Shown: positions 15,328-37,288 of the stretch, one piece after another
Layout of the letters: each line of letters starts with the position of its first letter
Position numbering within the stretch: position 1 is the first letter of the stretch
NCBI GenBank assembly: GCA_945870155.1
Contig: CAMBSB010000034.1
Coordinates: 1-37,963 of the forward strand
Reading direction: 5' to 3'
Source of the DNA: Paludibacter jiangxiensis
Lineage (GTDB): Bacteria > Bacteroidota > Bacteroidia > Bacteroidales > Paludibacteraceae
Length of the DNA: 37,963 bases
Notes under the pieces: generated by a model
Told to the model about the DNA's origin: nothing
What the model saw: only the letters and a program-made list of their open reading frames with translations
The model's database searches: none
Position numbers and translations under genes: made by a program

Positions 15328-17595
15328 TTATTCAAAACACTTAAATAAATGTTTATCTAATATACCTTTAAGTAGTATTGAATCGATAGGTTTAGTAAGA
15401 AAATCATTCATTCCTGAATTTATAGCTTTCTCTTTTTCTTCATCAAGCGCACCAGCTGTAAGCGCAATTATTGGTGTATCTTTAATTATTTCCATGTCGA
15501 GTGCACGAATAGTTCTTGTCGCTTCCATACCATCCATTTCGGGCATTTGTACGTCCATTAGTACCAAATCAATATGCCTTTGCTTTACAATTTCAACTGC
15601 TTCGAGTCCATTGTTTGCTTCTACAATTTCAACATCAGGTAATATACTCCTTATCATAGCTTTAGCTAAAAGCATATTCATCTCTACATCCTCAGCTATC
15701 AGTATCACTTTTCTGCTTATATCGCTTTCAATTTCATTATTAATAATTTCTTCTTCAAAAATCGAATCTGAAATTTGTTCTTCATTACAAATTTTATCTG
15801 TTATTAATTCAAATAAATCATCAGTTTTAATAGGTTTCATAAACTTACACTTAATCCCATATTGATTTGATTCTTTATTAACATGATCCTCATCTGTTGC
15901 ATTATACATTAAAGCTATAATTAATTTACTCGAGCATATATCCAGTTTATTCCTAATTAAAGATGTTATTTCAAAACCATCCATATCCGACATATTAAAA
16001 TTGCTAAGAAACAAATCGTATTTATTAGATTTTAGTTTTAACAACGCATCGAAAGAACTCTCGCAAAGCGTATAATTTACACCCCAATAATCAAAGTGAG
16101 TAGAAATATTTTTTAAGTTATGTACGTTATTATCAAGCACTAACACGTTTTTATTAACCACCACAAATTTATTATCAACAGATTGACTTTTAAACTCTGC
16201 ATCAACACTAAAATGGAAAGTACTCCCTTTACCCCAAACGCTATCAAGCTTTAGTGGGCATCCCATTTTTTCGGCAAGTAAATTTGAAATAACCAAACCA
16301 AGTCCAGTACCACCAAATTTTCGTGTAGTTGAAACATCGGCTTGGGTAAAAGCTTTAAAAAGTCTTTGTTTTTGTTCCTGTGTAATTCCAATACCGGTAT
16401 CACGTACCGAGAACTGAAATGTACCTTTGTTGCCAACAACATTATTAAACTCAAGTTTCATTTCAATTTCACCTTTATTGGTAAATTTGATAGCATTACT
16501 CAACAGATTAATTAAAATTTGTTTTAAACGGACTGGGTCAACAAGTATAGTTCGTGGTAGGTTGGGTTGGGTAGTTAATAGCAATTCAAGTCCTTTACTT
16601 GCAGCTAGATACCGAACAATTTCAATGGTTTTTTCGAGTAAATCGTAAATGTCAGTTTCTACAATTTCCAAATCGAGTCTCCCCGCCTCTATTTTTGAAA
16701 AATCAAGAATATCGTTAATAATATCCAGCAATGCCTTGCCTGCATGACTTACATTCTCTGTAAATTGTTTTTGAGTTTTATTTAATTGTGATTTAAGCAG
16801 TAACTCAGTAAATCCCAATATCGAGTTCATTGGAGTTCTGATTTCGTGGCTCATATGCGCCAAAAATTCACTTTTAGCTCGATTAGCTTGTTCAGCTTGT
16901 TGTTTGGCTTTGTCAATTGCTAAAGCCTTGTCTTCCAATTCTCTATTTAATGCCAGAACACCTTTATTTGTTTCTTCCAGCTCATTGTTAATAATTTCAA
17001 TTTCTTCGTTCCTTTCCTGCAAATTCTTGAGCAGAAATACCAATTCATTGTTTTGAGCATGAATTGTTTCAACCATACTCGAATCGCCTCGCTCAATTGT
17101 TTTTCCAAACGCAACTTGTATTGAATGAAGCATTTCAATATTAATTGATTCTGAAAATACCGGAAGCCATTTAGCAATGGTTATTTTAGTGCCTTTTCCT
17201 GTAGCTGTTTGAATGTCAAAGTCATCCATCAATCGTTGAGAACCGCTTAAGCCGACTCCCATTCCGTTTTTAGATACAAATGAACCGTTTCTTATTTCAT
17301 CTAATTGTTGAATTCCATGACCTTGGTCTTTAAATTCAATCACCACTCCATCCGAATTATCCGATCGTTTAGCAATAAAAAAAATTATATTACCACCATT
17401 GGCATGTTCCATCATGTTGCGACTCAACTCAGAAACAGCTGTACCAATACGAATGCAAGAAGTCTTGTCGAATTTAATTTCTTGTGCAAGAATGGAGCCC
17501 AAATTACGTGCACGTACTACGTCCGATTCAAATTGAATCGGGATAGTACCTACTTTATGTAGAGTAGTTGATAATAAGAACGGTGGCATCATCAT
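15328..17595 (-). CDS. Hybrid histidine kinase with N-terminal RsbT-like ATPase domain and two receivers
   Basis: Probable output kinase of the stressosome operon; soluble, with no membrane helix. Residues about 15-145 form an RsbT/RsbW-like GHKL ATPase domain (N box [10 protein letters not shown], then KDQGHGI and [14 protein letters not shown]). A coiled coil follows at about 180-240. Then come HisKA with phospho-His H250 in [14 protein letters not shown], and HATPase_c ([23 protein letters not shown]) to about 465. The first receiver (about 482-605) is degenerate: N532 replaces the phospho-acceptor Asp ([12 protein letters not shown]) and Met replaces the usual Thr/Ser in IIALM. The second receiver (about 628-750) is complete: ED at 635-636, D681 in [12 protein letters not shown]735. 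No DNA-binding or HPt domain is present. Its start overlaps the previous gene by 41 bases. Confidence 0.93.
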
Positions 17596-18616
17596 TAATT
17601 CTTGAATAGTTATTAATTAAAAAATCAGCATTCTTTTGTGGATGTTCTTTCCAGTCAATATCATCATTGTTCCAACGGGTATTTATACCATCGCTAAAAA
17701 GACAAAGTGAGTCTCCTTGATCAAAAGTCAATTCAAAAACATTTGGTGTACGAATATTGTGTCCTAATATCCCACCAAAAGAAATTAAACTTTTTTTGCC
17801 ATTTGATGTTTGTATAAAACCTTCGATATTACCTACTCCAACAAAATAGATTTTTGATGTTTCAATATTAATTATGGCAATCCCCACTACAGCTCCCCGG
17901 GTTCCTCGGGCTGCTTGATGTATATATTTTACCAATTTATCAAGAGGAAGGTCACTTTTAAGGAGAATTTGTTCCTTTATTAAATTCGATGCCAAATGTG
18001 CTTCTTTACCATGACCTAAACCATCAATTATGGCTACCATAGTTTTTGTTGGACTTAAATGACTTATTAAATAAGTATCTCCATTCAGAGTTTCGCCGGG
18101 TTTTGGACGAGAAACTGCACCTGTTATCAAACTATGATTTGTTCCTAACCAACGATTATCAGGAACCCATTTTACAATACGTATACAATGTTTATAATTA
18201 TGTGAGGTTTGAAAATCTAATCCATTTACCGATACGTCTAAAGTAGGGTTTACTTCGAAAATATCTGAAAATCTGCGAATTGTGCCCAATCCGATTCCTA
18301 GTGTTTTTGTATCGGTAACACCGTCGAGTATGGCATCATCAACATTCACAATTCCATTTCCTCCATCACAGCACCATATTTCAATGGCCTTACTATCATC
18401 ATCGCTTTGTAACTGGCAAATCATTATTTTGCCCTTACCTCCACCATGTTTTAAAACATTTGTTACTAATTCAGAAACTAGGATTGCAACTTCACCGGTT
18501 TTCACACTATCAAATCCTAGTTGACCTGCTAAACTTACAGCTTTTCGTCTACATACACCCACATCAGCATCACTATCTATCTCAAGTATGAGTATTTGTT
18601 CACGATTCATCTCCAT
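17555..18616 (-). CDS. RsbT/RsbW-like ATPase fused to RsbX/SpoIIE-like PP2C phosphatase
   Basis: Two regulators in one chain of 353 residues. Residues about 8-150 are a GHKL ATPase domain (N box [12 protein letters not shown] with E49 and N53, [18 protein letters not shown]). Residues about 160-352 are a PP2C-type phosphatase with the metal-site acids in place: D180 in NGDTY, IDGLGHG (D198), SDGI (D309) and NDDATV (342-347). In Gram-positive stressosomes RsbX resets phosphorylated RsbS and RsbR; the same job is inferred here. Met3 (ATG at 18610) gives an ATGA overlap with the rsbT stop and is an equally good start. The downstream kinase overlaps its 3' end, so the genes are probably translationally coupled. 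Confidence 0.88.
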
Positions 18617-19038
18617 TTTGTTATTCTTACAGTTGTTCCTACATTTAGCTTGGAATATATCTCAAAAATATCAACAAGTCTTTTCGACCCTGGTAAACCA
18701 TAGCCCATTCCTTGTCCAGACGTATATCCATCGGTCATCACTAAATCAATATTTTCAATTCCAGGTCCTTTATCAATACAGGTTATTATCAATGCATTAC
18801 GCTCCTGAACAAGACCTTTTTCAATAATCACCTCACCTCCACCAGCATACATATACATATTTCTAAAAAGCTCGGAAACTGCTGTAGTTATACGGGTTTG
18901 ATCAACAATTCCCATACCGGCTTCTTTAGCGTATTGACGCACTATCTGCCTGGCTTTTACAATGTCATATTCGTTTTGAATTGGACAATTTTCGAGCAAT
19001 TCCCAGCTTTTATCTGATACTATTTCATGCATTTGCAA
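18607..19038 (-). CDS. rsbT: Stressosome switch protein kinase RsbT
   Basis: Serine/threonine kinase of the GHKL fold, known in Bacillus to be held by the RsbR-RsbS stressosome and released once it has phosphorylated their STAS domains. The 143 residues align over the full family length. The N box SELFRNMYMY (E56, N60), the Mg/ATP motif CIDKGPGI (D89, G91, G93) and the G2 loop GQGMGYGLPGSKRLVD (about 108-123) are all intact. Its partners rsbS and rsbR lie directly upstream. The downstream fusion gene overlaps its stop by up to 10 bases. The downstream target here is probably not an RsbU phosphatase, since none is present. Confidence 0.93.
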   Translation of the reverse strand: MQMHEIVSDKSWELLENCPIQNEYDIVKARQIVRQYAKEAGMGIVDQTRITTAVSELFRNMYMYAGGGEVIIEKGLVQERNALIITCIDKGPGIENIDLVMTDGYTSGQGMGYGLPGSKRLVDIFEIYSKLNVGTTVRITKWR

Positions 19039-19043
19039 GTAAT

Positions 19044-19418
19044 TTAATCCTTATTTAATCGTTTCTCAAGCATTTCCATTCCATACTCCATATTTAGAGC
19101 TGTATCAACACCAGGCATTTCAAGTCCAAGTTCTACCAATGTAATAGCTACAGCCGGCTGCATACCAACAATAACAACTGCTGCATCCATTATAGCCGCC
19201 ATAGATGCCATACCCGAAAGAACTCTTCCAATAAATGAGTCTACCATTTCGAGTGTAGAAATATCAATTAATACTCCCTTTGCACCTGTACGATGAATTT
19301 CTTCTAAAATTTGCGATTGCAACTGGATGGCTAATCTGTCATGCATATCTACTTGAATTGAGACAATTAAGTAGTCGCGAATTTTAATAATCGGGATTCT
19401 TTTTTCGTTAAAAATCAT
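19044..19418 (-). CDS. rsbS: Stressosome core antagonist RsbS (single STAS domain)
   Basis: Core structural protein of the stressosome, a STAS-domain protein that sequesters RsbT until phosphorylated. The 124 residues form one STAS domain. The signature GVLIDISTLEMVDSFIGRVL contains S61 in VDSF, equivalent to the Ser phosphorylated by RsbT in Bacillus, and GMQPAVAITLVELGL forms the following strand and helix. It starts 3 bases after the end of the RsbR-type gene and ends 5 bases before rsbT, the conserved R-S-T order. Confidence 0.93.
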   Translation of the reverse strand: MIFNEKRIPIIKIRDYLIVSIQVDMHDRLAIQLQSQILEEIHRTGAKGVLIDISTLEMVDSFIGRVLSGMASMAAIMDAAVVIVGMQPAVAITLVELGLEMPGVDTALNMEYGMEMLEKRLNKD

Positions 19419-19421
19419 AGC

Positions 19422-20111
19422 TTATAATTGATTTTCTTCTTGTTCGAAAAAGTTTGTTTTAATTTTTCCACCAACGAGTTGATCGTTTTTCTTCATAGCA
19501 TAAATCATGGCATCTTGAAGTGTGGCTTTAGTAAGTATATTGGATAAATTAATACCCAAATGCACTATAGTTTGAGCAATGGCAGGGCTAATACCACTTA
19601 CAATACACTCAGCTCCCAATAAACGTGCCGCAGTTACTGTTTTAAGCAAGTGATTAGCAACTTGTGTATCAACAGTTGGAACACCAGTAATATCAAGAAT
19701 AGCAGTAGTACAACCTGTTGCAACAATTTTTTGCAACAAATTTTCCATCATTATTTGAGTTCGCTGGCTATCGAGGGTACCAATAACAGGTAAAATAAGT
19801 ATATTGTCCCAAACTTTGGAAACAGGACTCGACAACTCCATTAAATCTTCTTGCTGTTGAAGTATCGTTTTTTGTTGAACCTGAATTTTCTGAAGTTTTT
19901 CTTCCATTTCAGCTTTCATTTTAAGACTTTTTTTCAACTCATGGGTTAAGTCGTCAATCAATAGGTTGATTGCTTGTTCTACACCGGTTAAATCATCTTC
20001 AATGTCAGATTCGATTCTAATGTCCAGATCGCCTGCGGCAACTGATGATAGCACATCTTCAATATGATCGATACGTGCTTTGGCATTTTTAATTTGAGTG
20101 TTTGCTTCCAT
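19422..20111 (-). CDS. rsbR: RsbR-type stressosome scaffold with HAMP-like input domain and STAS domain
   Basis: Forms the stressosome shell with RsbS; its N-terminus should carry the input signal. Residues about 8-60 resemble a soluble HAMP domain (DVLSSVAAGDLDIRIESD, then LTGVEQAINLLIDDL). A coiled coil follows at about 55-95. The STAS domain lies at about 100-215, with LDITGVPTVDTQVANHL and GISPAIAQTIVHLGI matching the RsbR family closely. T149 (in VDT) and T181 (in AQT) are candidate RsbT phosphorylation sites. No membrane segment is present. This differs from Bacillus RsbRA-RD, whose input domains are globin-like, and from blue-light LOV types. It starts 8 bases after the second SpoIIAA-like gene. 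Confidence 0.9.
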   Translation of the reverse strand: MEANTQIKNAKARIDHIEDVLSSVAAGDLDIRIESDIEDDLTGVEQAINLLIDDLTHELKKSLKMKAEMEEKLQKIQVQQKTILQQQEDLMELSSPVSKVWDNILILPVIGTLDSQRTQIMMENLLQKIVATGCTTAILDITGVPTVDTQVANHLLKTVTAARLLGAECIVSGISPAIAQTIVHLGINLSNILTKATLQDAMIYAMKKNDQLVGGKIKTNFFEQEENQL

Positions 20112-20119
20112 AATATATT

Positions 20120-20482
20120 TTATCTTTTACTTTTTAACCATTTTATTGCTTCCTCATTTGTTTTGAAGAAATCTCCGTTTAATTTTACTATACCTGTTTT
20201 TATTAATACTTTAGCCATAATTCTGTTGTAAGCTGAACCTCCAACAAAAGCCACTTCCGATAAATTTAGTTTGCTTAAAGCCTCAGCCAGTGCTTCTCTT
20301 GTTTCTCGGTTTTCGACAACATAAACATCACTTATTATTGATATTAATTGTCTGAATCTTTTATCTTCTAATAAAGATCTAAGATTTTCGGACAATGGTT
20401 CAATATCAATAAGTTTTAAGTTCGCATTTGAACTAAGAACAACCACTTCATTTTCTTCGTCGTACTTTAATTCGTGATCCAT
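20120..20482 (-). CDS. SpoIIAA-like (STAS/SEC14-type) protein, second of two tandem paralogues
   Basis: Small 120-residue protein that resembles the SpoIIAA-like (STAS/SEC14) family: a beta-alpha core, NRIMAKVLIKTG, and the C-terminal FFKTNEEAIKWLKSKR. It is clearly homologous to the gene just upstream. The first 11 residues and the last ~60 are nearly identical, while about 12-45 has diverged. It carries the stretch LSEVAFVGGSAYNRIMAKV. Function is unknown; the position directly before rsbR suggests an accessory or input role in the stressosome. Confidence 0.6.
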   Translation of the reverse strand: MDHELKYDEENEVVVLSSNANLKLIDIEPLSENLRSLLEDKRFRQLISIISDVYVVENRETREALAEALSKLNLSEVAFVGGSAYNRIMAKVLIKTGIVKLNGDFFKTNEEAIKWLKSKR

Positions 20483-20563
20483 AATATTCTGTTTATTTAA
20501 ATTGAAAAATTAATTTAGCTTTAAATTTATAATCTTTTCTTTTTATTTTGCAAGCCTAAAAAA

Positions 20564-20926
20564 TCATCTTTTACTTTTCAACCATTTAATTGCATCTTCA
20601 TAAGTTTTAAAAAAATCTCCATTAATTTTTATCAAACCAGTTTTAATAAGTACACGGGCAATCATTCTATTTGCTGCACTACCCCCGACAAAAGCAACTT
20701 CCGTAATTTTCAGTTTGGATAATTGCTCACTTGTTGCTTCACGTGTATCACGATTTTCAACATTGTGTGTATCGCTCATCACCACCAACAATTGTCGATA
20801 AGGTTTGTTTTCGAACATATTTTTTACTTCTATAAAAATCGGATCAACTTCTTTTTGCAAGAAGTGATTCTTAAAAATTAGTACTCCAATGGCGTTTTCT
20901 TCGTCATACTTTAATTCATGTTCCAT
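20564..20926 (-). CDS. SpoIIAA-like (STAS/SEC14-type) protein, first gene of the stressosome operon
   Basis: Paralogue of the following gene, also 120 residues, with the same start (M-HELKYDEEN) and end (FFKT-E-AIKWLKSKR). The shared centre reads VENRDTREA, then VAFVGGSAANRM. The variable part (about residues 12-50) lies in the first strands of the predicted fold. The two genes are 81 bases apart, the longest gap inside this operon, and the gap is AT-rich without a clear promoter. Family assignment rests on pattern only. Its place behind the likely operon promoter suggests it is made together with the stressosome proteins. Confidence 0.6.
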   Translation of the reverse strand: MEHELKYDEENAIGVLIFKNHFLQKEVDPIFIEVKNMFENKPYRQLLVVMSDTHNVENRDTREATSEQLSKLKITEVAFVGGSAANRMIARVLIKTGLIKINGDFFKTYEDAIKWLKSKR

Positions 20927-23254: not shown

Positions 23255-25063
23255 TTAGTTCAAAATACTGTCTATTCCTTCGTAGTAATTAATAAAAGCT
23301 TTATTAACTAATCTATTTCCTCCAGCTGTTGGATAATTTCCTGTAAAATACCAATCGCCTGTATGATTAGGACAAGCAGCATGTAAACCATCAATTGTTT
23401 GATAAACTAATTCTACCGGACAATCAACATCTGTAGGCGTTAACATATGTGCTATCTGAACTGAAATTTCATCTTGAGTAAAAGGTTTATAAATTTCTGT
23501 AACGTAATTAATTATCTCTTCCTTTGGTAAATTTTCCTGAGCTTTCGATTTAGAATAAACCTCATCAATTATTGATTGACGACCCGTATTTTTCAATAAT
23601 TCTATGGCAGCTCTAAAAGCACAAAACTCATTCATACGCGCCATATCTATACCATAATAATCGGGATAACGAACTTGAGGCGAAGATGAAACTATGACAA
23701 TTTTTTTTGGTTCTAAACGGTTCAAAATTTTCAAAATACTTTGTTTGAGTGTAGTGCCTCTAACAATTGAATCGTCAATAGCAACCAAATTATCAACTTT
23801 TGCTCTACGAATTGAGCCATAAGTAACATCGTAAACGTGTGTTGCTAAATCGTTTCGCTCATTATTTGTAGAGATGAACGTACGTAATTTGATATCCTTT
23901 ATTAATACCTTTTCAACTCTAATCGGTGCATTATTTGTCGCTTTTTTTATTCCATCTGTCATTCCATAAAAAGCAACTTCGGCCGTGTTTGGAATAAATG
24001 AAAAAACAGTATTTTCTATATCGTTATTTATTGCTTTTAAAATTGGTTGTGCCAATGTCTCACCTAGCCGTTTGCGTTCTTTGTAAATATCAATATCGCT
24101 TCCTCGTGAAAAATATATACGTTCGAAAGAGCATTTAGTTAAATTGAGTGATTCGGGTCTGATAGTTTCAAATTTGACAGTTCCATCCTTTTTAATTATC
24201 ATTGCTTCACCCGGTTTCAATTCATGTACTTCTTCTTCTTTCACATTCATAGCAGTCTGAATCACAGGTCTTTCAGATGCAGTTACCACAGTTTCATCAT
24301 TTATAAAATAATAAACCGGACGAATACCTTTGTGATCGCGAAAAACAAATGAATCGCCATGTCCTAACATTCCACAAATTGCATATCCACCATCCCACGT
24401 TTTTTCCGATTTGCGAATGAATGATGCAATATCAAGATTATCTTCAATTTTTTTGGTTATAACCAAATCGTTTGTGTAGCGTTGTCTTATTTTATTATAC
24501 TCTTTTTGTACTTCTCTATCAAGCTGAAATCCAAGCGATTCAAGCATCAGAAAAGTATCACCTTTATCGCGTGGATGTTGACCTTTTAGTGTGAGATGCT
24601 CAAATATTTCTTCCACATTAGTTAAATTGAAATTTCCTGCCAGTACCATTGTTCTATTCTTCCAGTTATGACGACGTAGAAAAGGGTGAACATAAGACAA
24701 TCCACTTTTACCCGTGGTACTGTAGCGTAAATGACCCAAATAAAGTTCTCCGGCAAACGGTAATTCAAGTTTTGCTTTTTCAGTATTTGATAAAACTTCA
24801 TGTGAGACATTGGACATTTTTTTGTTTATAGTTGCAAAAATTTCCTGAATAGCATTTTTGCCTTCAACTCTATCGCGCCATATATATTCCTCACCCGGAG
24901 GCATATCGAGTTTAACTGTAGCCAGTCCTGCACCCTCTTGGCCTCTATTATGTTGTTTCTCCATAAGCAAATACATTTTTTGCAATCCGTACTGCCAGGT
25001 ACCATATTTTTCTTGATAATAATTAAGAGGCTTTAAAAGCCTAATCATTGCTATACCGCACAT
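23255..25063 (-). CDS. Amidophosphoribosyltransferase (PurF) family protein, long form
   Basis: PurF-type enzyme, which would make 5-phosphoribosylamine from PRPP and glutamine in purine synthesis. The start MCGIAM places the nucleophile Cys2 correctly. The glutaminase domain shows QHNRGQEGAGLATV, GHLRYSTTGKSG and AGNFNLTN. The phosphoribosyltransferase domain has an intact PRPP loop, LVAIDDSIVRGTTLKQS, near residue 420. At 602 residues it is about 100 longer than standard PurF (about 470-510), with added length in the glutaminase domain. Bacteroidota often carry this long form beside glutamine enzymes, possibly as well as an ordinary PurF. It follows glmS on the same strand with a terminator between them. 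Whether it is the main PurF cannot be told here. Confidence 0.82.
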   Translation of the reverse strand: MCGIAMIRLLKPLNYYQEKYGTWQYGLQKMYLLMEKQHNRGQEGAGLATVKLDMPPGEEYIWRDRVEGKNAIQEIFATINKKMSNVSHEVLSNTEKAKLELPFAGELYLGHLRYSTTGKSGLSYVHPFLRRHNWKNRTMVLAGNFNLTNVEEIFEHLTLKGQHPRDKGDTFLMLESLGFQLDREVQKEYNKIRQRYTNDLVITKKIEDNLDIASFIRKSEKTWDGGYAICGMLGHGDSFVFRDHKGIRPVYYFINDETVVTASERPVIQTAMNVKEEEVHELKPGEAMIIKKDGTVKFETIRPESLNLTKCSFERIYFSRGSDIDIYKERKRLGETLAQPILKAINNDIENTVFSFIPNTAEVAFYGMTDGIKKATNNAPIRVEKVLIKDIKLRTFISTNNERNDLATHVYDVTYGSIRRAKVDNLVAIDDSIVRGTTLKQSILKILNRLEPKKIVIVSSSPQVRYPDYYGIDMARMNEFCAFRAAIELLKNTGRQSIIDEVYSKSKAQENLPKEEIINYVTEIYKPFTQDEISVQIAHMLTPTDVDCPVELVYQTIDGLHAACPNHTGDWYFTGNYPTAGGNRLVNKAFINYYEGIDSILN

Positions 25064-25188: not shown

Positions 25189-27030
25189 TTATTCCACTGT
25201 TACCGATTTTGCAAGGTTTCGGGGTTGGTCAACATCGCAGCCTTTAACAACTGCTATATGATAAGCCATAAGCTGTAATGGAATTGCAGCTAATAATGGA
25301 ACCAAACATTCTTCTGTTTCAGGAATGCTGATAGAATAATCGGATAAATTAGCTACAACAATATCACCCTCAGTAACAATGGAGATGATTTTACCTTTTC
25401 GTGCTTTAATTTCTTGAATATTGCTTACAACTTTTTCGTACATACCTACATTAGGTGCAATAACTACCACAGGCATTTCTTGTGTTATAAGGGCAATCGG
25501 TCCATGTTTCATTTCGGCAGCAGGATATCCTTCGGCATGTATATACGAAATTTCCTTTAACTTCAATGCACCTTCGAGCGCAACAGGAAAATTATATCCT
25601 CGTCCTAAATATATAAAATTCTGTGCATAAGTAAATGTTTTTGCAAACTGTGCTATGCTATCGTTTTGTTTAAGAATGTGATTAATTTTTTCAGGTATCA
25701 ATCCCAATTGATGAGTTATTTTCAAATACTGTTCTTCGGACAATGTACCTTTTTCTTTTCCAATGATAAGAGCTAACATGGTAAGAACAGTAACCTGAGC
25801 GGTAAAAGCTTTGGTTGAAGCAACTCCAATTTCAGGACCGGCATGTGTATAACAACCGGAATCTGTATTGCGAGGTATGGAAGCGCCAACAACATTACAA
25901 ATACCAAAAATAAATGCTCCCTGCGATTTTGCTAATTCTACAGCTGCTAAAGTATCGGCAGTTTCGCCCGATTGAGAAATTGGAATTACAATATCATCCT
26001 TATGAATCACCGGTTTACGATATCGAAACTCTGATGAATATTCCACTTCAACCGGAATACGCGCAAATTCTTCAATAGCATATTTACCTATTAATCCGGC
26101 ATGCCAAGAAGTTCCACAAGCAGTAATAATTATACGTTTTGCATTTAAAAATTTTTCTTTGTTATCAATAAAACCCGACAATGTTATATTGTTTTCTTCA
26201 ACATTTACACGTCCACGCATGCTATCGCTCAAGGTTTTAGGTTGCTCAAAAATTTCCTTAATCATAAAATGCGGATAACCACCTTTTTCGAGCTGACTTA
26301 GTGTCATTTCTAGTTTGTTGATTTCCGGCGTTTTTTCAATATTCGAAATTGTTACAATTTTTATTTCCATGCCTCTACGCAATGTAACTATCTCTTCTTC
26401 ACCTATGTAAACCACTTTATCAGTAAACTCAATTATTGGAGTTGCATCCGATGCTAAAAAATACTCATCTTCGCCTATACCCACTACCAAAGGACTGCCT
26501 TTGCGAGCAGCAACAATAACATCGGGTTCACTCTTCTCAATTACTGCAATAGCATAAGCGCCAACAACCTGATTTAATGCTAATTGTACCGCTGTACTTA
26601 AATCTACTTTATTTGTTTTCTTAACATACTCAATCAACTGAATTAGAACTTCTGTATCTGTTTCGCTCGAAAAAGTATATCCTTGTTCTTTTAAGCCTTC
26701 TTTTAAAACAGCATAATTTTCGATAATACCATTGTGGATAATGGCTAACTCTTCCGATTGTGAATAATGAGGATGAGCGTTTACCTGATTAGGCTCTCCA
26801 TGAGTTGCCCAGCGTGTATGAGCTATTCCAATAGTTCCCTGAATATCTTTTTGTTCAGCAAATTGGATTAACTCAGCCACTTTACCTTTGGCCTTATAAA
26901 CATTCAATTTATCGTTATTGATAAGTGCAATTCCGGCACTGTCATAACCACGATATTCAAGGCGCTGTAATCCTTTTATTAAAATTGGATAAGCCTGCTG
27001 CTTACCAATATAACCTACAATTCCACACAT
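25189..27030 (-). CDS. glmS: Glutamine-fructose-6-phosphate aminotransferase (isomerizing)
   Basis: Makes glucosamine-6-phosphate from fructose-6-phosphate and glutamine, the first step toward UDP-GlcNAc for peptidoglycan and LPS. The start MCGIVGYIG gives the nucleophile Cys2. The glutaminase domain (about 1-240) has LEYRGYDSAGIAL, HTRWATHG, HNGIIENY and SETDTE. Two SIS sugar domains follow, with CGTSWHAG, SQSGETADTLAA and ALEGALKLKEISYIHAEGYP. The C-terminus DQPRNLAKSVTVE is the conserved lid and tail. Length 613 is normal. No glmS ribozyme is visible upstream; the gene is 18 bases after dapL and probably shares its promoter. Confidence 0.97.
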   Translation of the reverse strand: MCGIVGYIGKQQAYPILIKGLQRLEYRGYDSAGIALINNDKLNVYKAKGKVAELIQFAEQKDIQGTIGIAHTRWATHGEPNQVNAHPHYSQSEELAIIHNGIIENYAVLKEGLKEQGYTFSSETDTEVLIQLIEYVKKTNKVDLSTAVQLALNQVVGAYAIAVIEKSEPDVIVAARKGSPLVVGIGEDEYFLASDATPIIEFTDKVVYIGEEEIVTLRRGMEIKIVTISNIEKTPEINKLEMTLSQLEKGGYPHFMIKEIFEQPKTLSDSMRGRVNVEENNITLSGFIDNKEKFLNAKRIIITACGTSWHAGLIGKYAIEEFARIPVEVEYSSEFRYRKPVIHKDDIVIPISQSGETADTLAAVELAKSQGAFIFGICNVVGASIPRNTDSGCYTHAGPEIGVASTKAFTAQVTVLTMLALIIGKEKGTLSEEQYLKITHQLGLIPEKINHILKQNDSIAQFAKTFTYAQNFIYLGRGYNFPVALEGALKLKEISYIHAEGYPAAEMKHGPIALITQEMPVVVIAPNVGMYEKVVSNIQEIKARKGKIISIVTEGDIVVANLSDYSISIPETEECLVPLLAAIPLQLMAYHIAVVKGCDVDQPRNLAKSVTVE

Positions 27031-35589: not shown

Positions 35590-36102
35590 ATGATTGAAAT
35601 ACTAAAATATACCATACCGGCCTTGTTGGTTCTTGTAACAGCTTATGTTTTACTCGACATAATGTTCAAGAACGAAGAAAAACGAAGAGCATTTGAGATA
35701 AATAAAAAAAACAGTTCCATTGTAACTCCTATTCGCTTACGTGCTTATGAAAGATTAATTTTGGTTTTAGAACGCACTTCTCCTAACATAATGGTAGTGA
35801 GCAATATAAAACCAGGCATGACTTGTTTTGAATTACAATCAATTTTAATAAATTATATACGTCAGGAATTTGGTCATAATGTAGCGCAACAAATTTATGT
35901 GTCGGACGAATTGTGGACTAGCTTTAGAAGCACGCAAGAAAGTTTGATTCAACTGATTAACAACTGTGCTTCAAAGTTTCAAGCTGAAAGTGAAGCAACT
36001 AAATTGGCCGAATTAATTATCAACGTTTTTGCTTCGAGCGATGAAACACCTACTGAAATATCGATTAATCTTCTAAAAAAAGAAACTCGAATTTTAATGT
36101 AA
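35590..36102 (+). CDS. Unknown single-pass membrane protein
   Basis: I do not recognise the family with certainty. The 170 residues have one N-terminal membrane helix (about 6-26, YTIPALLVLVTAYVLLDIMF). A Lys/Glu-rich linker and a cytosolic helical domain follow, including RLRAYERLILVLERTSPN, IKPGMTCFELQSILINYIRQ and FGHNVAQQIYVSDELW. The pattern looks like a conserved Bacteroidota protein. It lies 24 bases after the DUF190 gene and 24 bases before a lipoprotein gene. Confidence 0.6.
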   Translation: MIEILKYTIPALLVLVTAYVLLDIMFKNEEKRRAFEINKKNSSIVTPIRLRAYERLILVLERTSPNIMVVSNIKPGMTCFELQSILINYIRQEFGHNVAQQIYVSDELWTSFRSTQESLIQLINNCASKFQAESEATKLAELIINVFASSDETPTEISINLLKKETRILM

Positions 36103-36126: not shown

Positions 36127-36597
36127 ATGAAGATATTTAAGCTAATTACATTTTTAACTTTAGTCGCATTTGGTTTTATAGCATGTACTACTACCGAAAA
36201 CTGTACTGAGGAAAAAAGTGTTAATATGCAAATTGGTTTTTATACAAACAATCCTACTAGTACAAATGCTTTAAATATCGATAGTATTTGGGTAAGAGGT
36301 TTGGGAGTTGATTCATTTTTATATAAAAAAAAGACTGCGATAAAATCAATTTTAGTTCCGTTAAAAGACTTGGATATTCATACCGATTACATTGTTCGTT
36401 TTAATAATATAACAGACACAATTTCAGTGTTTTACCAAAGCAACAATCAATATTATTTATCATTAGAATGTGGTTGTGTTGTTTCTCACACCATAGATGA
36501 AGTGATTTTTACAAAAAATTTCATCAAATCTGTAATTATCACAAACAGGAATATTAATACATTAAGCACCGAAAATGTACAAATTTTTAATAATTAG
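36127..36597 (+). CDS. Lipoprotein of the DUF6452 type
   Basis: Predicted envelope lipoprotein of 156 residues. A signal of about 19 residues (KLITFLTLVAFGFIAC) has its lipobox Cys near residue 20. The mature part is a small beta-rich domain with three more Cys (NCTEE and ECGCVVSHTIDEV), a layout like the DUF6452 family. Its last 23 bases overlap the next gene, an arrangement that points to co-translation with the DUF6048-like partner. The family name is from memory of the pair and not certain. Confidence 0.6.
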   Translation: MKIFKLITFLTLVAFGFIACTTTENCTEEKSVNMQIGFYTNNPTSTNALNIDSIWVRGLGVDSFLYKKKTAIKSILVPLKDLDIHTDYIVRFNNITDTISVFYQSNNQYYLSLECGCVVSHTIDEVIFTKNFIKSVIITNRNINTLSTENVQIFNN

Positions 36598-37288
36598 CAT
36601 TTTGTCTTTGTTTAGTGTATTTAGCACTCAAGCGCAGTCAAAACAAACAAATAAACCCGAAACAGCTTTAAAAAAAAGCAAGCCTGATTCAGTAAAAGTA
36701 TCTACTCCCATTTTTAAAAATTTAAGATTGGATATTGATGTTGCGCCAGTTTTAAAAAACATTTTTGCTGCTGACGATACCTACTCTTTTGAAACCGGAC
36801 TACAAGCCAATTTATTAAATAAATATTATCCAATTATTGAACTTGGATATGGCGGAGCTAATCATACCTCAAGCACTGATATAGGTTTTATAACCAATGG
36901 TTTATTTGGACGAATTGGCCTTGATTTTAATTTATTAAAACAAAAAGAAGGTAAAAAATTGTCATCAAATTTAATTTTAGCAGGCTTGCGACTTGGTTAC
37001 AGTAAATTTAATTATGATTTAACTAATATAGTGATAAATAATGATTATTGGAATGAGAAAACTCAGTATGATATATTAAATGAATCGACTAGTAAACTTT
37101 GGTTCGAGATAGTTTTCGGGGTTAAAGTTGAGATATCTAAAAATATTTATATGGGTTGGACTATTCGAAATAAAAGGACAATAAAAGAAGCAGCACTTGG
37201 AACACTAAATCCTTGGTTTGCACCTGGATATGGCATTAATTCTTTATCCAATATTGGAATAAATTATATGATTGGTTATAAGTTTTAG
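36575..37288 (+). CDS. DUF6048-type outer-membrane beta-barrel protein
   Basis: Predicted outer-membrane or surface protein of 237 residues. A signal peptide ends at STQAQS near residue 21. The mature chain shows alternating strands with Tyr/Gly (PIIELGYGGANH, FGRIGLDFNL, LILAGLRLGYSKFNYDL), and ends in NIGINYMIGYKF, with the terminal Phe typical of barrels. The preceding lipoprotein gene overlaps it by 23 bases, in line with a conserved DUF6452-DUF6048 pair. Function unknown. Confidence 0.65.
   Translation: MYKFLIISILSLFSVFSTQAQSKQTNKPETALKKSKPDSVKVSTPIFKNLRLDIDVAPVLKNIFAADDTYSFETGLQANLLNKYYPIIELGYGGANHTSSTDIGFITNGLFGRIGLDFNLLKQKEGKKLSSNLILAGLRLGYSKFNYDLTNIVINNDYWNEKTQYDILNESTSKLWFEIVFGVKVEISKNIYMGWTIRNKRTIKEAALGTLNPWFAPGYGINSLSNIGINYMIGYKF

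Follow-up and report, generated by a model that had tools for sequence, protein, structure and literature searches.

A stretch of Paludibacter jiangxiensis DNA, 37,963 nucleotides long (positions 1 to 37,963 of contig CAMBSB010000034.1, assembly GCA_945870155.1; hereafter the window), carries at 15328-20926 an operon of seven genes encoding a stressosome and a hybrid histidine kinase (HK). This kinase is very probably the output of the stressosome, because an HK gene follows the core genes in all 14 other Bacteroidia loci compared and in 70 of 80 loci from named genomes. It begins with a domain that resembles RsbT, the switch kinase of the stressosome, and on comparative grounds we moderately favor a system in which the HK would be held and released through this domain and the linker that follows it.

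The seven open reading frames lie on the minus strand in the order AA1, AA2, RsbR, RsbS, RsbT, ATPase-PP2C phosphatase and hybrid HK (5' to 3'), with intergenic gaps of 3-81 bases and overlaps of 10 and 41 bases, the longer one between the phosphatase and HK genes (Table 1). An earlier sequence-only reading of this DNA, made by a model, had described such closely packed genes, with a complete RsbRST core, an ATPase-PP2C fusion and a hybrid kinase coupled to the stressosome in place of SigB. Our searches bear out the gene set, and make the coupling very probable.

Among 100 near relatives (own genome counted), RsbS was found in six, all of the same genus, which amounts to 6/48 genomes of that genus with our own included. 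Across the class it was matched in 18 of 395 genomes: our own, eight others with E<1e-30, one divergent locus (G145) and eight weak matches, whose loci encode STAS proteins but neither an RsbT nor a PP2C partner. The sequence-only reading had proposed searching the Bacteroidota for the gene order, and in the 14 other Bacteroidia loci (five from the same genus, nine from the same class) the HK gene always comes after the phosphatase gene; the phosphatase has its ATPase domain in 13 of them. The exception, L052 (3537-4160), combines a STAS-only RsbR with a single-domain PP2C lacking the ATPase domain. We scanned named genomes with 14 RsbS queries and so obtained the 80 named loci; these are the nearest to the query RsbS among the matches listed, include many Pseudomonas and do not form a census. 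They span Bacteroidales, Gemmatimonadota, Acidobacteriota, Verrucomicrobiota, Cyanobacteria and many Proteobacteria. A PP2C gene was recognized in 74/80, in every case (74/74) with an N-terminal RsbT-like ATPase, and the loci with an HK next after the ATPase-PP2C belong to several phyla. The ten in which no HK was scored are six that end too early (L053, L065, L068, L077, L098, L128) and four from Stahlbacteria/WOR-3. The suggestion in that reading of a possibly undescribed gene set and order is therefore not supported, as the order recurs in several phyla and RSTX modules with HisKA/REC proteins, as well as RSTX modules in Bacteroidetes, appear in the accessible part of PMC9237108.

The genes beyond the phosphatase take several forms. 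In L051 (5220-8724) a receiver-receiver-HK comes first, then an HK whose RsbT-like domain is intact, then a single receiver. The named isolate Maribellus maritimus (L056, 9828-13128) has an output HK with one receiver scored and, after it, a receiver-HK as a separate protein. The 26 Pseudomonas loci (among L079-L130) have short HKs, mostly of about 290 residues, and in most of them a REC-HK-REC protein comes next.

We searched the window's own assembly (5.79 Mb, 97.9% complete, 339 contigs) with family profiles for other possible partners. These searches found no RsbU, RsbV, RsbW or SigB, which leaves the HK as the only output evident in the genome; the SigB/F/G model gave nothing above cut-off (best 109.6 against 234.35 bits). 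The absence of these proteins, claimed in the sequence-only reading, thus holds for the whole assembly as searched, and SigB/RsbW-type genes elsewhere, which it had named as counter-evidence, were not found. The single SpoIIE domain of the assembly is that of the operon phosphatase. Three HATPase_c_2 domains score above cut-off, all in the operon (RsbT, the ATPase-PP2C and the HK), and three more score below it. STAS domains occur in RsbR, RsbS and one 564-residue frame, which is probably a transporter. Stress signals had also been supposed to feed a His-Asp phosphorelay. The second receiver of the HK could accept a phosphate, which leaves room for one, but the genome has only one Hpt domain scoring above cut-off, and the 1336-residue frame that contains it is also an HK. 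No response regulators were found among the genes flanking the operon. An Hpt-based relay as a sure output is not supported by this single domain; Hpt profiles can miss divergent members. Overall, the earlier interpretation is partly supported, being right about the core and wrong about rarity, with the relay as a possibility.

The RsbRST core is complete and keeps the expected phosphosites and ATP motifs. Pfam places a STAS domain in both RsbR and RsbS, HATPase_c and HATPase_c_2 in RsbT, and HATPase_c_2 plus SpoIIE in the phosphatase. In PDB sequence searches RsbR matches a solved Vibrio RsbR chain (8.3e-34) and RsbS a solved B. subtilis RsbS chain (1.2e-31), and by this homology the two would assemble into a STAS core, which in stressosomes is a pseudo-icosahedral complex of megadalton size. 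Ser115 and Thr149 of RsbR align with positions 175 and 209 of the Listeria RsbR chain, which we take to be phosphosites, and Ser61 of RsbS is invariant in 14/14 sequences. RsbT qualifies as a GHKL kinase with intact ATP motifs; its start is likely the ATG at 19032 rather than the TTG at 19038, and it has 141 residues in 5/5 relatives of the same genus. The PP2C gene stands directly after RsbT, as in Gram-negative RSTX modules, here with an added ATPase domain. The ATP-motif residues (N-box Asn, DxGxG) are intact in 85/86 stand-alone RsbT proteins and 88/88 phosphatase ATPase domains; in this table 71 of the 80 named loci have an RsbT row, the others (L054, L063, L064, L071, L074, L100, L103, L110, L117) having been dropped where the RsbT frame also matched the HK-core profile.

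The Pfam domains of the kinase (HATPase_c_2, HisKA, HATPase_c and two Response_reg) are those of a hybrid histidine kinase. Receiver 1 is a pseudo-receiver, with Asn532 in place of the phospho-accepting Asp, and receiver 2 is intact (Asp681); by eye, receiver 1 also has Asn in L039-L041, and in L042 the residue is not Asp. The sequence-only reading had listed an RsbT-like kinase in its proposed checks and made no use of it in its interpretation. Among the 70 HKs that follow the phosphatase in named loci, 43 have such an N-terminal domain, 32 intact and 11 degenerate. Taking named loci, window and Bacteroidia loci together (for L051, its second HK) gives 58 domains, of which 39 retain all four checked ATP-motif residues (N-box Asn, DxGxG) and 19 do not. 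By class this is 39/39 of the intact and 0/19 of the degenerate copies, a split that is partly by construction, since the classes were set by profile score before the motifs were counted; the existence of degenerate copies is not. The degenerate domains retain [ED]xxD in 18/19 and the N-box Glu in 19/19. Those of Bacteroidia, which Pfam does not list, are RsbT homologs by profile comparison of a set of eight degenerate domains (E 3.4e-13 and 2.8e-12), where control RsbR N-termini gave E 0.14-0.45. That the domain is kept after loss of its ATP site suggests that it serves docking rather than catalysis. In trees, the domains carried by HKs group on a single branch, separate from both RsbT and the PP2C-borne domains, with support of 97 (231 rows) and, by another method, 92 (75 rows); both trees have few columns and long branches, and the RsbT group has support of 38 in the second. 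This single branch suggests one old fusion. We did not find an N-terminal RsbT-like domain on a stressosome HK in the open-access literature searched.

The linker between the RsbT-like domain and HisKA has a median length of 85 residues in 42 HKs (range 68-252), and the hydrophobicity of the 32 linkers of 68-94 residues peaks at a period of 3.5 residues, a value with no significance test attached. Within it we found a signature, [TS]N-x-G-[VI]-x-A-L, in 63/70 stressosome HKs and in 0/74 other HK frames of the same loci, 63 of which span at least 150 core residues; this background is 84 frames minus ten better matched by RsbT (0/84 before their removal). From signature to phospho-His the spacing is 34 residues in 49 HKs, 41 in nine, 48 in two and 194-195 in two with a longer insert, one HK not having been measured, so that 60 of 62 measured spacings are heptad steps, as a continuous coiled coil allows. 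The signature was absent from 29 other HK loci of the window's own genome, which cover 29 of its 39 other HisKA matches. A profile of it finds 6/100 relatives, exactly the six with RsbS, and across the class a strong match in our own genome and two weak ones (2.8e-5 and 5.5e-4). We read the weak matches as chance, as L177 has long frames without the signature or ELE-x-TN and L178 has only an ELERTN coil. The signature, which we did not find in the open-access literature searched, marks most, though not all, of the stressosome HKs compared.

From these comparisons we propose the following mechanism. RsbR and RsbS would form the STAS core, on which RsbT, under stress, would phosphorylate Ser115 and Thr149 of RsbR and Ser61 of RsbS, and the ATPase-PP2C would reset these sites as RsbX does. 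The HK may dock on the core via its own RsbT-like domain, or pair with RsbT, and phosphorylation of the core would release it. Its coiled-coil linker could then be acted on at TN-x-GV-x-AL by the RsbT-like domain or by freed RsbT, much as Bacillus RsbT grips the RsbU linker, so that autophosphorylation of His250 would be switched and receiver 2 would carry the output. We propose a linker switch because the accessible part of PMC12143880 describes activation of RsbU through ordering of its coiled-coil linker by RsbT, and proposes linker control also for HKs with RsbU_N.

Several observations weigh against this proposal. No RsbT-like domain was detected in 27/70 HKs (26 from Pseudomonas and that of L067), so it is not needed everywhere; for the candidate domain of L067, hhalign gives 30% with E 5.5e-4 against the degenerate set and 0.32 against RsbT, a weak match that was counted as none. 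L051 has the domain on a second HK and not on the one that immediately follows the phosphatase. The signature is absent from 7/70 HKs (L073, L092, L100, L109, L117, L127, L131), among which L100 and L117 are short of seven residues at its site, the L127 frame starts at the HK core, and the HK frames of L117 and L127 are cut. It is also absent from all ten HKs of the nine same-class loci L044-L052, both L051 HKs included. RsbU_N is not among the Pfam matches of the window HK up to E 1, a search in which HMMER filters can drop weak matches. Finally, the accessible part of PMC9237108 gives no positive interaction between VvRsbT and VvD1 in Vibrio, and whether VvD1 bears an RsbT-like domain is not seen there.

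Alternatively, freed RsbT could grip the HK linker and thereby activate the kinase in trans, as with RsbU, the fused domain serving only dimerization or fine-tuning. This would account for the signature in 26/27 HKs without an RsbT-like domain (25/26 from Pseudomonas, plus L067) and for the separate RsbT-type frame in all 80 named loci (sometimes partial, and within a longer frame in L085), and it agrees with the grip of RsbT on the RsbU linker in the accessible part of PMC12143880. We nevertheless regard it as unlikely, as the retention of one separate branch of HK-borne domains across several phyla points to a specific role, and 11/70 HKs retain a degenerate copy. The HK-borne domain might also be an active Ser/Thr kinase for RsbS, RsbR or the AA proteins, which would make the HK an input or feedback arm and not the output. 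The ATP motifs intact in every non-degenerate copy, the window's included, agree with such activity, but the 19 of 58 copies without them are still fused at the same place, and we consider this improbable.

In a highly improbable alternative, the output would be the ATPase-PP2C, switching the AA proteins as a two-headed kinase/phosphatase, and the HK would be a side branch. SypE-type proteins are fusions of an RsbW-type kinase with PP2C, joining a GHKL ATPase and a PP2C in one protein, and these are the two activities that act on SpoIIAA/STAS proteins (RsbW/RsbU, SypE), a fold that the model of AA1 also predicts. The protein of the window differs from SypE in being a two-domain protein inside an RST operon, with no SypA-type target shown. 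The ATPase-PP2C occurs in 74/80 named loci and AA genes in only 15/80, so AA would not be its general substrate, and no anti-sigma target was found in the own genome. That the HK merely adjoins the stressosome genes and works independently can hardly be credited: its link to the stressosome is known from sequence alone, yet its gene overlaps the phosphatase gene by 41 bases, the same order is found across several phyla, and the kinase itself bears an RsbT-like domain.

The two proteins at the start of the operon, AA1 and AA2, are 57% identical. Both had been called SpoIIAA-like, which stands for the fold and not for the Pfam match: DUF7793 alone scores above cut-off in each and the SpoIIAA-like match falls below it, while the predicted model of AA1 (pLDDT 82.6) matches SpoIIAA, RsbS and other STAS structures, consistent with a SpoIIAA/STAS fold. 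An N-terminal globin sensor is common in RsbR, though not required, and YtvA-type RsbR has a LOV domain. The RsbR of the window has no globin-type N-terminus; its STAS domain begins at about residue 92, after a short helical stretch. This stretch is perhaps a HAMP domain, a lead rather than a result, as the Pfam match (E = 0.019) is below cut-off and the model is of low confidence (pLDDT 71.8, pTM 0.47).

AA genes were found in five of 60 relatives, the RsbS-positive ones among these, and in 20/94 loci (L039-L132, the window's own excluded), upstream of RsbR. All 20 have a short RsbR, in which roughly 90 residues separate the likely Met from STAS. A long RsbR frame, with STAS at least 146 residues in, occurs in 69 loci; none of these has AA, and neither does L052 with its STAS-only RsbR; four loci (L061, L072, L076, L103) were not judgeable for this pairing. 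Only two groups hold AA loci, Bacteroidales (16) and Stahlbacteria/WOR-3 (4), so the pairing may reflect one or two events, and their RsbR proteins differ by seven residues in the coil beside STAS. Probably the AA proteins make up for what the short RsbR is missing, by sensing or by tuning the core. We did not find an operon start of the AA-AA-RsbR type in the open-access literature searched. In two Stahlbacteria/WOR-3 loci (L086, L110), AA, short RsbR, RsbS and RsbT are present and no PP2C or HK was recognized in ~7.5 kb downstream; L110 has two tandem AA-RsbR pairs.

The closest described system is VvrsbRSTX-D1-D2 of Vibrio vulnificus (PMC9237108, PMC10014275), where, in the accessible parts of both papers, RsbR-S-T-phosphatase genes are likewise followed directly by HK/receiver proteins, without SigB and sporadically within the genus (RSTX in 4/38 Vibrio species, PMC9237108); PMC10014275 treats VvD1-D2 as the output. 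The Vibrio RsbR has a heme globin and the phosphatase is called single-domain, whereas the operon of the window has a short RsbR, a phosphatase with an ATPase domain, added AA proteins and an HK with an RsbT-like domain. According to the accessible part of PMC9237108, RSTX modules occur in Bacteroidetes as well as other phyla, and the proteins encoded downstream of them are of the HisKA/REC, GGDEF or PP2C type; RsbU_N is on some of these and absent from most. The paper suggests RsbT-dependent phosphorylation of the kinase and, in that part, describes no RsbT-like domain on it. For the Vibrio brasiliensis stressosome the output is given as unknown in the part of PMC4976288 accessible. The RsbU_N-bearing HKs and diguanylate cyclase (Moorella MtG) in the accessible part of PMC12143880 are similar in that the output enzyme is thought to be regulated via a coiled-coil linker; the HK of the window has no listed RsbU_N, and here the switch protein itself is fused, not its docking partner. 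The stressosomes of Bacillus subtilis and Listeria share the RsbR-RsbS-RsbT core with its phosphosites and differ in their RsbU-RsbV-RsbW-SigB branch.

Table 1. Features of the stressosome operon (window positions).
Feature	Positions	Strand	Basis
AA1, small STAS/SpoIIAA-fold protein (DUF7793), 120 residues	20564..20926	-	Pfam, predicted fold
AA2, AA1 paralog, 120 residues	20120..20482	-	Pfam; identity to AA1
RsbR, short form: helical (HAMP-like?) N-terminus, coiled coil, STAS	19422..20111	-	Pfam, PDB sequence search, model
RsbS, one STAS domain, conserved Ser61	19044..19418	-	Pfam, PDB sequence search, alignment
RsbT switch kinase, ATP motifs intact	18607..19032	-	likely ATG start
RsbX-like phosphatase, ATPase-PP2C	17555..18616	-	Pfam HATPase_c_2 + SpoIIE
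Phosphatase N-terminal RsbT/RsbW-like ATPase	about 18152-18616	-	
Phosphatase SpoIIE/PP2C domain, acidic PP2C motifs present	about 17558-18151	-	
Output hybrid HK (very probable), 755 residues	15328..17595	-	Pfam
HK N-terminal RsbT-like domain, ATP motifs intact	17146..17568	-	HATPase_c_2; 39% identity to RsbT of the operon
HK helical linker, RsbT-like domain to HisKA	16876..17145	-	linker lengths and 3.5-residue period in relatives
Linker signature TNKGVLAL, residues 209-216, 41 residues before His250	16948..16971	-	
HisKA (His250) and catalytic HATPase_c	16198..16878	-	Pfam
Receiver 1, degenerate, Asn532 at acceptor site	15781..16158	-	
Receiver 2, intact, Asp681	15370..15705	-	Pfam

Elsewhere in the window, a 602-residue protein (23255-25063) with only weak glutamine amidotransferase matches adjoins a GlmS-like gene with SIS domains (25189-27030), and the genes at 35590-36102 and 36575-37288 belong to the function-unknown families DUF7935 and DUF6048.

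Tentatively, these features could together define an ancient class of stressosome in which switch and output are one molecule: the HK would dock by its own RsbT, active or pseudokinase, and on release this would grip the heptad-registered TN-x-GV-x-AL linker, while in Bacteroidales and Stahlbacteria the sensor would have moved from RsbR to AA subunits, possibly within the core. The AA proteins are a candidate new stressosome subunit, and the signature, found here only on stressosome kinases, could flag stressosome output kinases in unannotated genomes. For the route from stressosomes to two-component systems, an RsbT-like domain and a linker signature on the kinase provide a concrete and testable candidate.

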